This document shows, one piece after another, positions 23,822 to 48,260 of a stretch of DNA of 48,893 bases. The position numbers were made by a program, and so were the translations under genes. Where the stretch lies: positions 1 through 48,893 of the forward strand of contig JAJVHW010000066.1 in assembly GCA_022072415.1 (NCBI GenBank). The letters run 5' to 3'. Within the stretch, counting starts at the first letter, position 1; each line of letters starts with the position of its first letter. This DNA is from Planctomycetota bacterium (GTDB lineage Bacteria; Planctomycetota; JAJSAM01; JAJVHW01). The notes below the pieces were generated by a model. The model saw nothing but the letters and a program-made list of their open reading frames with translations, was not told the DNA's origin and did not search any database.

Positions 23822-24022
23822 GCGTCACACTTCCTGTGCGTACGATGAGGTTTCGAGCGTAAGGTGGCGGAGAGGAAGGGATTCGAACCCTTGAGGCCGC
23901 GAGGCCCGCCGGTTTTCAAGAGCGGCGTGTCAGCAAACAGCGCCCCTGTCCCGCCGTCCTGGCGTGCTTTTGCGGCCCCTCACGGCGTTTCCGGACTGTG
24001 ACGCGTCACAATTTGCGTCACA
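23822..24022. promoter_or_regulatory. Putative integrase arm sites and palindrome flanking the core
   Basis: gcgtcaca is found at 23822-23829 on one side and at 24003-24010 and 24015-24022 on the other. The middle one is within the perfect 14-base palindrome tgtgacgcgtcaca (23997-24010). Repeats bracketing the crossover core are what phage attP sites have for integrase, IHF or excisionase. No protein binding is shown. Confidence 0.45.
23865..23921 (-). other. attP core: 3' half of a tRNA-Ser gene
   Basis: On the minus strand the sequence is the 3' half of tRNA-Ser (TGA anticodon): CTTGAAAACCGGC (anticodon loop and stem), a long variable arm, AAGGGTTCGAATCCCTT (T arm) and CCTCTCCGCCA. The 5' half is absent: the base pairing of the anticodon stem fails on the phage side. 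Phages often carry this half so that integration restores the host tRNA. Both flanks are phage genes (integrase and tail fibre), as in a circular phage genome or between tandem prophages. Confidence 0.8.
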
Positions 24023-45339: not shown

Positions 45340-45543
45340 TCAGGCTCCGTAGTACCAGGCCATTTCATATTCGTCTTGGAATCCGCGAGTCGCTTCCACG
45401 AACTGCGGGCCGAACAGCGCCGCGCATGCACGGAGAAGCCCCGGCGACATCGGACGAAGGGGCAACAGATATACTTTCGGCGGCCGATCCTCCTCATCGA
45501 AGGCGACCGGCGCGCCGTTGAACATCAATTGGCTATCACTCAT
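45340..45543 (-). CDS. Small protein found only in copy B
   Basis: A 67-residue protein between TerL and the conserved unknown; its ATG overlaps the TerL stop (ATGA). Copy A has no counterpart. It contains RPPKVYLLPLRPMSPGLLRACAALFGPQF and ends in a Tyr/Trp-rich tail. Not recognised. Confidence 0.6.
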   Translation of the reverse strand: MSDSQLMFNGAPVAFDEEDRPPKVYLLPLRPMSPGLLRACAALFGPQFVEATRGFQDEYEMAWYYGA

Positions 45544-47864
45544 CGTCGATACCTCGATTTCGGCTGGTCATCGCCGGTCAGTTTCAGCAGTTGGTCGAAG
45601 GTCAGGGCGCCGACCGGCTTCTGCACGACCTTCTGTGTCGCCCGGATGAAGGGCCGGGAGGCGCAGGCATACCGCCAATCGTCGGCGCAGTTATGGACCA
45701 CGATTCCCCCTTCAACCGTGAATGCCCGCGTACTCGGCACCGTTAGGCAATACACGTCCCGCCTCTCTGGCAGCACGTCGACGTTTACGCAGCGCGCGCG
45801 CTTTACAGGCTCCGCCGCAGAATCGTGCTTGCGAGATGCGCGCAGCACAGACCAAATAACTTTCGCCGCACTCATCGCAAGTCGCCGCAACGCGCCTTTC
45901 CAAAATGGGGCGGATACTCCGCTCGAAGTGCTCGGAATGCCACCGACGGCCCTGCTCGCTGCCGTGCCATCGCCTTGCTGCATCAATGGCCTGGCTGATG
46001 GCCAGGCGGCCGCGCGCGCCGGATTCAGCCCCGTGCCGCGCTGATTTGTGCTCAAATCCTGTGATGCATTCGAGATTGGAAATTGAATTGTCGGCGCGGT
46101 CACCGTTGATGTGGTGGACGTGATGACCGGCAGGAATAGGCCCGCGATTGCTCTCCCAGACCTCCCGATGAAGGCGGCGGCCCTTACGCTGAAAGTACGC
46201 ACCGCAGAGGTAATACCGCTTGCCGGCGAATTCCTGAACAGTTTCGCTGATGATGTTTGGATCCATATTACGTCCTCGCCTTTCAATTGTGAGGCACACC
46301 GCCATGCGTCGCCCGACACCTTGAATCTATGATCCGGGGTGCACACCACTGAGCGCCCGTCTTCGAACGTAACCCGTACCACCGCCGCTGCTCGGCGTGT
46401 CAGGCGCGCGCCGCGATAGGCCCGGAAAGTGGCATCGTCAGACAGCACAAACCCGTTTTCCGGTAGCAGTTCGATCGGCACAGCCCCCGCTACCGTATCC
46501 ACCAGCGTCCCAGCGGCAAAACAGTGATCCTCGCTGTTCGTGTTCAGGTCCTCGAGCCGGTCCGGGTCGTGCTGCAGCATCGGGATGGTGTTGCGCGAGG
46601 CTTCGCACGTCGTGAAACACACCACCATGGGGTGGCCGTCCTCGTCGCCCTCCAGGCGGGAGCGCACGAGATCCCAGCCGCCGATCGCGCCTTTCTGCGC
46701 GACACGGGTATTATCCGCCGGCCGCCATGGGTACTTGCGACCGCTGCCCAGGTAGAGGTTCTCGGCAATCGACGGCCCGCCGTCTTCCTTGAAGGCGGAG
46801 GGGTCCAGCACCCCGTAGGCGTGCTCCGGGTCCTCCCGGCTGCGCTCGGCAATCCCGGCACCGACCGCATCGGCGGTCATCTTCAGGCCGACGTTATCGT
46901 GCACCTGGCCGTCGACCACCTTTACCCCGTACCACTCCCGGTACCGGACAAGACAACCACGGGGGATCTTCACGCGGTCGCCATGGATATTGCGCGCGTC
47001 GACCGCCTCGCTGGCCACCGCCCACCAGCCGACGCTGAACGGGCGCGCGCTGCCCCAGTCCATCGACCGGAAGCGCGCCCAGTCCTTGGGGATCTCGAAG
47101 GGCCGCACGACGTGCCGGGACTCCTCCCAGCAGTCGAAGAACGCGCCCGCCACGACGTTCCAGTCTCCGCGCGTCCAGGCCCGCCGCAGCGTCTCGTTGC
47201 CGTAGGTGGCCGCGATGATGCGGCGCAGGTAATGCGGGTCCTTCTCCTGCAGCTTCCGGTTGTCCCGCAGCCGAGAAGGGATGAACATGCGCGTCAATCC
47301 GGATTCCGGATCCACCCACGGCGTGAACGGCGTGGCGATCATGATGTAGCGGCGCTTCACCCATGCGTGCCCGACGCCGCCCGGGTTGCCGGTCAGGCGC
47401 ATGCTGCAATGCACGCCGTGCGGGCTGCGCAATGTCGAGATCATCAGGAGAACGCCCGCCGGGGTGGGATACTCGGTCACCTCGTCGAAGCTGATCCGCG
47501 TGTACTGGTGGCCGTGGTAATGCGTGTAATCGCGCTCATGCTCGATATAGCGCATCTTGACGGTCGCCCCGTTCGGCCAGTACCAGCAATTCGAGAACGG
47601 ATACCGGGGGCTCGGCTGCGTCTTGTAGATGGCGCCGGTCTTCGGGAAGATCTCGGCGGCGCGCACCTGCAGCTCCTCGAGATCGTTGTAGGTCTTGCGG
47701 AATACGATCCCGCGGTGCGCGGGACCGTCCAGCATGGCGCCGTCCTCCTGGTAACCGAGCTGGAAATCCGATTTCCCGCCGCCCCGCTCGCCCCCGAAGA
47801 AGAGTTCATCGACCCAATCAGCCAGGATCGCGCTGGTCTGCGGGCCGGGCTGCGGCTGCCACAT
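45540..47864 (-). CDS. terL: Terminase large subunit with in-frame intein (copy B)
   Basis: A 774-codon gene. Residues 1-447 and 726-774 are TerL; 448-725 are an intein. The ATPase has GGERGGGKSD (Walker A, Lys31) and RISFDEVTE (Walker B, Asp127/Glu128), then GNPGGVG. The nuclease has Asp269 in MDWGSARPFSVGW and Asp354 in GVLDPS; the third motif SEDH|C..DDWRY is interrupted by the intein, whose removal joins His447 to Cys726, three residues before Asp729. Without splicing the nuclease could not form. Homology to copy A TerL runs the full length. Confidence 0.93.
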   Translation of the reverse strand: MWQPQPGPQTSAILADWVDELFFGGERGGGKSDFQLGYQEDGAMLDGPAHRGIVFRKTYNDLEELQVRAAEIFPKTGAIYKTQPSPRYPFSNCWYWPNGATVKMRYIEHERDYTHYHGHQYTRISFDEVTEYPTPAGVLLMISTLRSPHGVHCSMRLTGNPGGVGHAWVKRRYIMIATPFTPWVDPESGLTRMFIPSRLRDNRKLQEKDPHYLRRIIAATYGNETLRRAWTRGDWNVVAGAFFDCWEESRHVVRPFEIPKDWARFRSMDWGSARPFSVGWWAVASEAVDARNIHGDRVKIPRGCLVRYREWYGVKVVDGQVHDNVGLKMTADAVGAGIAERSREDPEHAYGVLDPSAFKEDGGPSIAENLYLGSGRKYPWRPADNTRVAQKGAIGGWDLVRSRLEGDEDGHPMVVCFTTCEASRNTIPMLQHDPDRLEDLNTNSEDHCFAAGTLVDTVAGAVPIELLPENGFVLSDDATFRAYRGARLTRRAAAVVRVTFEDGRSVVCTPDHRFKVSGDAWRCASQLKGEDVIWIQTSSAKLFRNSPASGITSAVRTFSVRAAAFIGRSGRAIAGLFLPVITSTTSTVTAPTIQFPISNASQDLSTNQRGTGLNPARAAAWPSARPLMQQGDGTAASRAVGGIPSTSSGVSAPFWKGALRRLAMSAAKVIWSVLRASRKHDSAAEPVKRARCVNVDVLPERRDVYCLTVPSTRAFTVEGGIVVHNCADDWRYACASRPFIRATQKVVQKPVGALTFDQLLKLTGDDQPKSRYRR
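45690..46523 (-). other. Intein in TerL (278 residues)
   Basis: The splice junctions are Asp-His/Cys-Phe-Ala-Ala-Gly-Thr at the start (Cys1) and Val-Val-His-Asn/Cys at the end. Block A is CFAAGTLVDT; block B has VVCTPDHRFKV with the Thr-x-x-His motif; block F/G is VYCLTVPSTRAFTVEGGIVVHN. The terminal His-Asn and the following Cys are the canonical residues for class 1 splicing. The part between blocks B and F (about 160 residues) is Ser/Thr/Ala-rich without a homing endonuclease motif in this frame, because an HNH gene uses another frame here. The F-block histidine often present is Arg in STRAF. Confidence 0.9.
45712..46266 (-). CDS. HNH homing endonuclease nested in the intein in a different frame
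   Basis: A 184-residue protein with its own ribosome binding site: GAGG seven bases before ATG in ggcgaggacgtaatATG. The HNH core is LHREVWESNRGPIPAGHHVHHINGDRADNSISNL (33-66), with His51/His52 and Asn60. A C-terminal four-Cys zinc finger (CDECGESYLVC ... FCGGACK, 130-154) and a basic helix follow. The whole gene lies within the intein, offset by one base from the terL frame; the last 30 or so codons overlap the intein's splicing blocks F. It would cut intein-free terL alleles, such as copy A, and promote spread. In the usual arrangement the endonuclease is fused in-frame. Confidence 0.85.
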   Translation of the reverse strand: MDPNIISETVQEFAGKRYYLCGAYFQRKGRRLHREVWESNRGPIPAGHHVHHINGDRADNSISNLECITGFEHKSARHGAESGARGRLAISQAIDAARRWHGSEQGRRWHSEHFERSIRPILERRVAATCDECGESYLVCAARISQARFCGGACKARALRKRRRAAREAGRVLPNGAEYAGIHG

Positions 47865-48225
47865 CGTTGCTCTGCCCTGCGACCGGGTGCAGCTTCAGCC
47901 ATTCCTCCTTGGTCAGCTGCGGCCGCACGGTCACGTTATGGTTGTGTTCGACGGGTTTGTCCGGATCACCGGAATGCTCCATGGCGATCTGCGCGAGCTT
48001 CGGGTGCACGTACGGGGCGGCGGACTTCGCGGCCTCCAGGCGCATTTCCTTCGGCGCCTTCTGATCGCGCATCACCCTCAGCATGTACTGCAGGGGCGTA
48101 AGCCCGCTCTTGGCGATCTCCGCCTCGCGCGCGGCGGTGGCCTTGTTACGGCTGCCCTTCTTACGCCCCCCGTACTTCCGGCGCTTCGGGAGCTGTGCGG
48201 TGGTCGGTGTGTCTGCGGCGGTCAT
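47818..48225 (-). CDS. terS: Terminase small subunit (copy B)
   Basis: A 135-residue protein overlapping TerL by 47 bases. The basic start KRRKYGGRKKGSRNKATAARE is followed by a helix (LTPLQYMLRVMRD) and KEMRLEAAKSAAPYVHPKLAQIAMEHSG, typical of a widespread phage small-terminase group. Start at the ATG 48225; seven extra codons upstream are less likely. Quite different from the shorter copy A. Confidence 0.8.
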   Translation of the reverse strand: MTAADTPTTAQLPKRRKYGGRKKGSRNKATAAREAEIAKSGLTPLQYMLRVMRDQKAPKEMRLEAAKSAAPYVHPKLAQIAMEHSGDPDKPVEHNHNVTVRPQLTKEEWLKLHPVAGQSNDVAAAARPADQRDPG

Positions 48226-48260
48226 GCATGTGTGTCTATTTCGCAACTATTTTATAGTCC

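Follow-up and report, generated by a model that had tools for sequence, protein, structure and literature searches.

HNH endonuclease genes nested out of frame within inteins of the large terminase gene

The 48,893-nucleotide (nt) contig JAJVHW010000066.1 from a Planctomycetota bacterium (assembly GCA_022072415.1), referred to here in its full length as the window, carries a phage gene for the large terminase subunit, terL, with an in-frame intein whose loop DNA also encodes an HNH endonuclease in the -1 frame relative to terL. It is as good as certain that this architecture exists, that it recurs among relatives, and that it is maintained by selection. We consider it probable that the element is a mobile TerL intein and that its homing endonuclease, instead of forming part of the intein protein, comes from a separate gene overprinted on the intein loop in the -1 frame, and the sequences make it likely that the HNH protein is translated independently and acts in homing. 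The usual picture of a mobile intein is that of a protein to which an endonuclease domain is fused in frame. In the TerL inteins that we sampled, by contrast, one and the same piece of DNA holds two genes, one for the intein and one for the endonuclease.

The terL intein and the HNH gene within it

The terL gene (45540-47864, minus strand; 774 amino acids) matches the PHROG terminase large subunit family at 5.4e-24, and Pfam Intein_splicing (PF14890) matches in the TerL frame at 6.5e-11. The intein (45690-46523, minus strand), which is identified by Pfam, NCBIfam, AlphaFold and Foldseek, interrupts the TerL motif EDH^CADDWRY and extends over 278 residues from Cys1 to Asn278. An earlier reading of this DNA, the original prediction, had placed complete splicing blocks in the terL frame, and its coordinates prove exact; the strand of the two genes, which it had not named, is the minus strand. 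On the minus strand, the Cys1 codon lies at 46523-46521, block B (TxxH, here TPDH) at 46340-46329, and block F/G, VPSTRAFTVEGGIVVHN, at 45740-45690; the intein ends in His-Asn, with the Asn278 codon at 45692-45690, and is followed by the Cys+1 codon at 45689-45687. The NCBIfam C-terminal splicing model matches the intein at 2.8e-5, above its cut-off, and the N-terminal splicing model scores below its own cut-off.

Sequence and an AlphaFold model of the TerL frame together delimit an N-terminal Hint half (intein residues 1-90; 46254-46523, minus strand) and a C-terminal Hint half (residues 241-278; 45690-45803, minus strand). Both halves are modeled with a predicted local distance difference test score (pLDDT) of 92-98. 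Between them, pLDDT is mostly below 50 for residues 95-167 and remains below 60 up to about residue 200, and a helix at residues 205-229 is intermediate. In a Foldseek search the intein model matched 28 chains of the PDB at E<=0.001, with inteins at the top, and the gp41-1 intein (6qaz) gave a template modeling score of 0.85 by target; the window intein thus has the Hint fold. We found no endonuclease family in the TerL frame by Pfam, NCBIfam or PHROGs, in agreement with the original prediction for the middle of this frame, and the window intein is not a large intein with an in-frame endonuclease domain. Nor is it a split intein, since its N- and C-terminal halves (IntN and IntC) lie on one open reading frame (ORF).

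The HNH gene (45712-46266, minus strand; 184 amino acids) is recognized by Pfam, PHROG and AlphaFold. In its frame, HNH_3 (PF13392) matches at 3.4e-16 and the best PHROG is an HNH family at 1.4e-31. The protein contains both an HNH motif region (RLHREVW ... HHINGD; 46099-46176, minus strand) and the Cys pairs of a C-terminal zinc-finger-like region (CDEC ... CGGAC; 45805-45879, minus strand), and the four zinc-finger cysteines are invariant across 47 aligned nested HNHs (alignment A14). Its AlphaFold model has a mean pLDDT of 93.0. The sequence AAAGGCGAGGACGTAAT precedes the ATG at 46266, and within the Shine-Dalgarno-like stretch AAAGGCGAGG (46274-46283, minus strand) a GAGG at 46277-46274 is spaced 7 nt from this ATG. 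The claim that the gene encodes an HNH and zinc-finger protein with its own GAGG and ATG therefore stands, as does the claim that it runs into block F, which is overlapped by the last 29 nt of the gene (45740-45712). An earlier in-frame ATG at 46305 lacks a Shine-Dalgarno core, and farther upstream a TAG stop interrupts the HNH frame (46327-46329, minus strand).

By sequence, the only solved relative of the HNH family at E<=0.01 is the HNH homing endonuclease I-HmuI (1u3e, E 5e-4). I-HmuI is also the top PDB match of the HNH model by Foldseek, at a weak E of 0.095 (prob 0.77) that misses 0.001. I-HmuI is borne by a group I intron. We rejected a group I or group II intron as the carrier of the window's HNH gene because an Rfam search of 45400-46700 gave no match up to E 1.

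The original prediction drew attention to the two frames that stay open over the same DNA. The double open frame is real, but it is unremarkable in the window alone: when the HNH gene is reshuffled synonymously, the TerL frame remains open in 71% of cases (P=0.71). We therefore rejected the window's own double open frame as evidence, and the case rests on relatives.

Recurrence of the nested form among relatives

Relatives were collected in six IMG/VR scans, each of which contributed at most its best 80 loci. Together with loci from other sources, and after exclusion of a copy of the window (L004), 395 fetched loci and the window make up a set of 396, in which some contigs were fetched repeatedly. 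The HNH is present by profile in 375 of these loci and absent in 21; grouping the 375 at 80% HNH identity gave 194 clusters. The HNH gene is nested out of frame in an intein in 157 of the 194 clusters, 130 of them in the -1 frame and 27 in the +1 frame. In a further 19 clusters, a fractured terL with a split intein surrounds the HNH gene. No intein was found with the HNH in 15 clusters, which comprise 9 with a free HNH after an intein-less TerL and 6 with a free HNH elsewhere, 3 of the latter lying near a contig end (L271, L301 and L306). The remaining 3 clusters have too short a contig upstream for classification. Among these best-ranked loci, none of the 194 clusters has an HNH fused in frame with an intein, indicating that intein and endonuclease are two genes; the longest stop-to-stop ORF of an HNH is 313 amino acids. 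Recurrence of the nested HNH as an architecture, in both alternative frames, is thus established.

The locus L001 encodes a TerL 46% identical to that of the window; its intein shares the insertion site of the window's, and the HNH nested in it is 59% identical to that of the window. The nested form also occurs in the records of Tetrasphaera phage TJE1, Acinetobacter phage Highwayman, Rhodobacteraceae phage LS06-2018-MD07 and MT838676. The last is a gut phage contig whose record has no annotation; in the other three the nested HNH is unannotated within terL. When genome contigs were scanned with an alignment as the query, two loci were obtained, a nested case in a Prevotella metagenome-assembled genome (MAG) and a free HNH in Gemella. 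The same scan with the window HNH as the query returned no loci, and among 59 genomes including the window's own the HNH was present in that one only.

To count intein forms independently of the HNH, we used the N-terminal Hint half as the query and took the best 80 of at least 491 relatives, without deduplication. These 80 loci comprise 63 nested cases (54 in -1, 9 in +1), 15 mini-inteins without an HNH (including L225, reassigned by eye), 1 fractured case (L213) and 1 locus truncated by a contig end (L144). An in-frame endonuclease was found in 0 of the 80. Intein_splicing matched in 70 of 76 enclosing frames scanned at E<=0.01, a sample that includes two chance overlaps (L010 and L013). Of 98 enclosing ORFs, 93 gave TerL profile matches; the 5 without a match start at a contig or locus end and have short N-terminal parts.

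These counts bear on the possibility that the arrangement is a frameshift artefact or a product of decay, with an HNH once in frame displaced by indels at both joints or by assembly errors. The composition of the window alone predicts its double open frame by chance (P=0.71), as such an origin would allow. Against it, 157 clusters from IMG/VR, phage records and the Prevotella MAG have the HNH out of frame and 0 of 194 have it in frame. In-frame homologues with indels at the joints, which the original prediction had said would expose an artefact, were encountered neither in these clusters nor in the 80 loci of the Hint census. Purifying selection on the HNH frame, described below, likewise speaks against this origin. 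Recurrence and selection together indicate that the arrangement is neither artefact nor decay, and we regard this explanation as extremely improbable.

Selection on the two frames and predicted translation of the HNH gene

We calculated the ratio of nonsynonymous to synonymous differences (pN/pS) for each frame in 71 independent pairs, 57 in the -1 set and 14 in the +1 set. The HNH frame has pN/pS values of 0.42 (-1 set) and 0.33 (+1 set), and the TerL frame over the same DNA has values of 1.11 and 1.32. The N-terminal Hint flank, read in the TerL frame, gives 0.46 and 0.47. The HNH-frame value is below the TerL-frame value in 71 of the 71 pairs; the comparison of rates that the original prediction proposed thus shows the HNH frame to be the more constrained. 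In the 8 close pairs (>=75% identical), the HNH frame ranges from 0.17 to 0.27 and the TerL frame from 0.69 to 2.94. This contrast indicates that the DNA is maintained as an HNH gene and that the TerL frame is mainly held open.

Synonymous shuffling of 98 clusters predicts 452 stops in the TerL frame. We observed 0 there, partly by definition, as open cases were chosen, and 1331 in the third frame. All of the 34 fractured or free HNH clusters counted as a control have stops in both other forward frames, with means of 6.1 and 16.5; this control includes the remnant in Brochothrix phage BL3, and 3 undecidable clusters were dropped from it. The difference between these two means may account for -1 being the commoner frame of nesting. 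At intein position 186, the TerL frame of the loop has an invariant Gly (alignments A13 and A15), which may be a shadow of Trp-His in the HNH frame (TGG CAY).

Translation starts were scored at the first ATG of each HNH, or else at GTG or TTG, and a Shine-Dalgarno core was defined as GGAG, GAGG or AGGA 4-18 nt upstream. A core is present at 67 of 129 starts in the -1 set, one -1 cluster not being scorable, and at 147 of 1525 control ATGs. Similar GATACG-rich stretches precede the start in several +1 nested clusters (for example, L039, L081 and L158).

The HNH could alternatively be reached by programmed -1 frameshifting, in which a slip of the ribosome out of the terL frame would yield a fusion of N-extein, intein and HNH. 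The majority frame is indeed -1 (130 of 157 nested clusters), and an in-frame slippery heptamer, X_XXY_YYZ with Y being A or T, lies in the allowed stretch in 2 of 83 -1 clusters. However, the other 81 have no such heptamer, 27 clusters use the +1 frame, and Shine-Dalgarno cores are enriched in the -1 set. Moreover, the HNH frame is closed by a stop at a median distance of 15 nt ahead of the first start, which leaves little room for a slip. Given the close upstream stop and the rarity of heptamers, frameshifting is unlikely as a general means of expression, and we give it very little weight as an explanation.

Several points weigh against a mobile intein with a separately translated endonuclease. 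The original prediction argued from the ribosome binding site to separate translation. That argument gains from the enrichment of cores in the -1 set and fails to carry over to the +1 set, where only 2 of 27 starts have a core. Even in the -1 set, 62 of 129 lack one at the start scored. By this rule the window itself is scored at its first ATG (46305), which has no core; its core belongs to 46266. In the selection test, pS is near saturation in distant pairs, although the direction still agrees in 8 of 8 close pairs. In-frame relatives may exist beyond the best-ranked loci that the scans returned. A call of nested required an open frame, and the absence of stops is in part a matter of case selection; the fairer figure is that of 157 nested versus 19 fractured clusters. 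Finally, expression, splicing and cleavage are predictions from sequence, and a role of the HNH in packaging, considered below, keeps a small share of the probability.

Insertion sites, fractured forms and known systems

In 80 of 98 clusters, the intein occupies one of four positions in the TerL motif D-H-x-x-D-A-x-R-Y: directly after the His in 47, one residue farther on in 22, three residues on in 6 and four residues on in 5. The insertion-site rule did not place the other 18. We take the motif at the insertion site, D-H-x-x-D-x-x-R-Y, to lie in the nuclease domain. It is uninterrupted in 3 of 3 intein-less relatives examined (EDHSYDETRY, EDHIADEARY and EDHIADETRY, versus EDH|CADDWRY in the window). 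Where a free HNH follows TerL, the unbroken target motif precedes the HNH profile match by about 80-160 nt in 6 of 9 loci, and the motif pattern has no match in the other 3. In L126 and L128, an intein with a nested HNH lies early in the protein, near residue 123 of 781 (...FLCH|CFTG), apparently outside the usual motif.

These arrangements suggest a simple route by which a splicing element could gain a homing enzyme: a complete gene, start included, can be taken up into the loop provided that the host frame is not closed. Translation of the terL message would produce one long precursor, the two Hint halves of which would fold around a mostly disordered stretch, and splicing would restore TerL. 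Initiation at the internal Shine-Dalgarno sequence and ATG would yield a free HNH enzyme that is predicted to cut intein-less terL alleles at the conserved E-D-H-x-x-D-x-x-R-Y codons. Repair of the cut would then copy the intein and the HNH gene together. Selection would preserve the HNH frame as a protein and, in the TerL frame, act only against stop codons. If such stops arise and the C-terminal half has a start of its own, a nested form may turn into a fractured terL with a split intein; loss of the HNH may leave a mini-intein.

A different role for the HNH would be that of a terminase packaging partner, as in HK97, with the overlap keeping the pair together. In 185 of 194 clusters the HNH lies inside, within a split of, or just after terL or the TerL intein, as such a partnership would lead one to expect, and the HNH nuclease of HK97 is described as working together with terminase when cos is cleaved in vitro (PMC10448857). 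Against this role, the 15 mini-intein loci of the Hint census show no HNH of this family on the same strand within the stretch that was fetched. Of the 3 intein-less relatives examined, 2 have a portal gene directly behind terL and the third has another gene there, and no HNH is annotated in between. The presence of the HNH within inteins at several adjacent positions of one motif is also homing-like. We consider the packaging role unlikely, though less so than frameshifting, and prefer a homing function for the nested gene.

The fractured layout consists of TerL-N with IntN, the HNH, and IntC with TerL-C (17 loci shown). IntN and IntC share a frame in 12 of the 19 fractured clusters and are in different frames in 7, including Lactobacillus phage CL2; many of these clusters are kin. 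In Vibrio phages 1.245.O and 1.238.A, the C-terminal part begins anew after 14 stops, in the same frame as TerL had originally, and this part has a marginal NCBIfam match only and none by Pfam. In CL2 and Brochothrix phage BL3, the split pieces were each confirmed separately. BL3 (L236, HM144386) has gp2 and gp3 that resemble the two halves of an intein-split terL, and the HNH remnant between them is the zinc-finger end only, in the -1 frame. In CL2 (L237, KR905067), the annotated large terminase ends in the intein N-half, and the intein C-half and TerL C-terminus are unannotated after the HNH gene (ORF 2467-2751). Profile searches led us to reject a free HNH in CL2, as its annotation has it, and free-standing HNHs in L022, L035, L045, L055, L061, L064, L079, L080 and L091, all of which have a fractured terL with a split intein. 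In L213 17-3139, a second intein-like N-terminal match (4.5e-9) lies in the same ORF at the P-loop (GNRGGGK), beside the fractured intein.

In a quick tree of 191 HNHs, from which the direction of change is not readable, parsimony gives at least 7 changes of frame among nested forms and 9 changes between nested and fractured forms; well-supported branches alone force 2 changes for +1 and 3 for fractured. The chances seem to us about even that, in this class of phage TerL inteins, an overprinted endonuclease gene with a translation of its own is the normal mobile state and that fractured terL genes with split inteins derive from it once stops appear in the TerL frame; if so, nested endonuclease genes would be a source of split inteins. 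With its nested, fractured, mini and free variants, this single motif provides a series on which the origin of split inteins, tools in wide use, can be tested. Annotation overlooks these genes, as it does the HNH in the three annotated nested phage records and the C-terminal part of terL in CL2.

Fractured genes in which an endonuclease separates the two halves of a split intein were reportedly described by Dassa et al. in 2009, with an endonuclease of a Vsr-like family. The same layout occurs in 19 of 194 clusters here. The window and the 157 nested clusters differ from it in keeping one continuous host frame through the endonuclease gene, and the endonuclease here is HNH_3. Classical large inteins carry an in-frame endonuclease domain, whereas here it is out of frame. 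Among the papers listed in searches of the open-licence literature, which mostly leaves out subscription papers and preprints, where prior notice is possible, we found no intein with an out-of-frame endonuclease.

Out-of-frame HNH insertions without an intein are already known; what appears to be new here is the out-of-frame HNH within an intein. The ShiLan domain and the Pacc40 insertion are out-of-frame HNHs in phage DNA methylases. Their authors detected neither a splicing domain of an intein or intron nor a ribosome binding site, and they expect the inserted segment to remain part of the protein (PMC11855218). As in our loci, the phage gene has an insertion that is open in its own frame and encodes an HNH endonuclease in another, and a similar HNH gene is found beside uninvaded methylases, as free HNHs are beside TerL here; from the published coordinates (GTG at nt 18 of the insertion), we infer that the relative frame is also -1 (PMC11855218). 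In contrast to these insertions, a complete intein surrounds the HNH here, the host gene is a terminase, and Shine-Dalgarno cores are common in the -1 set. The window is thus not of the ShiLan type, as it has a splicing domain along with the out-of-frame HNH. Another methylase case is reported separately (PMC12613952). Mycobacteriophage TerL inteins are reported to show splicing and endonuclease activity and to have sites in the ATPase domain; they too place a Hint splicing domain in a terminase at a functional motif, whereas the site here is the D-H-x-x-D-x-x-R-Y motif rather than the ATPase domain (PMC5050341). TerL inteins are also reported in cyanophage Mic1, which has two, one of them in the nuclease domain (PMC7156551), and in crAss-like phages (PMC7886860).

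Upstream of terL, the window encodes a probable small terminase subunit (47818-48246, minus strand). It matches the PHROG terminase small subunit at 1.2e-8 and scores better, at 2.7e-18, against a family of unknown function. The sole tRNA detected in the window is a tRNA-Ser (TGA) at 23865-23951 on the minus strand.

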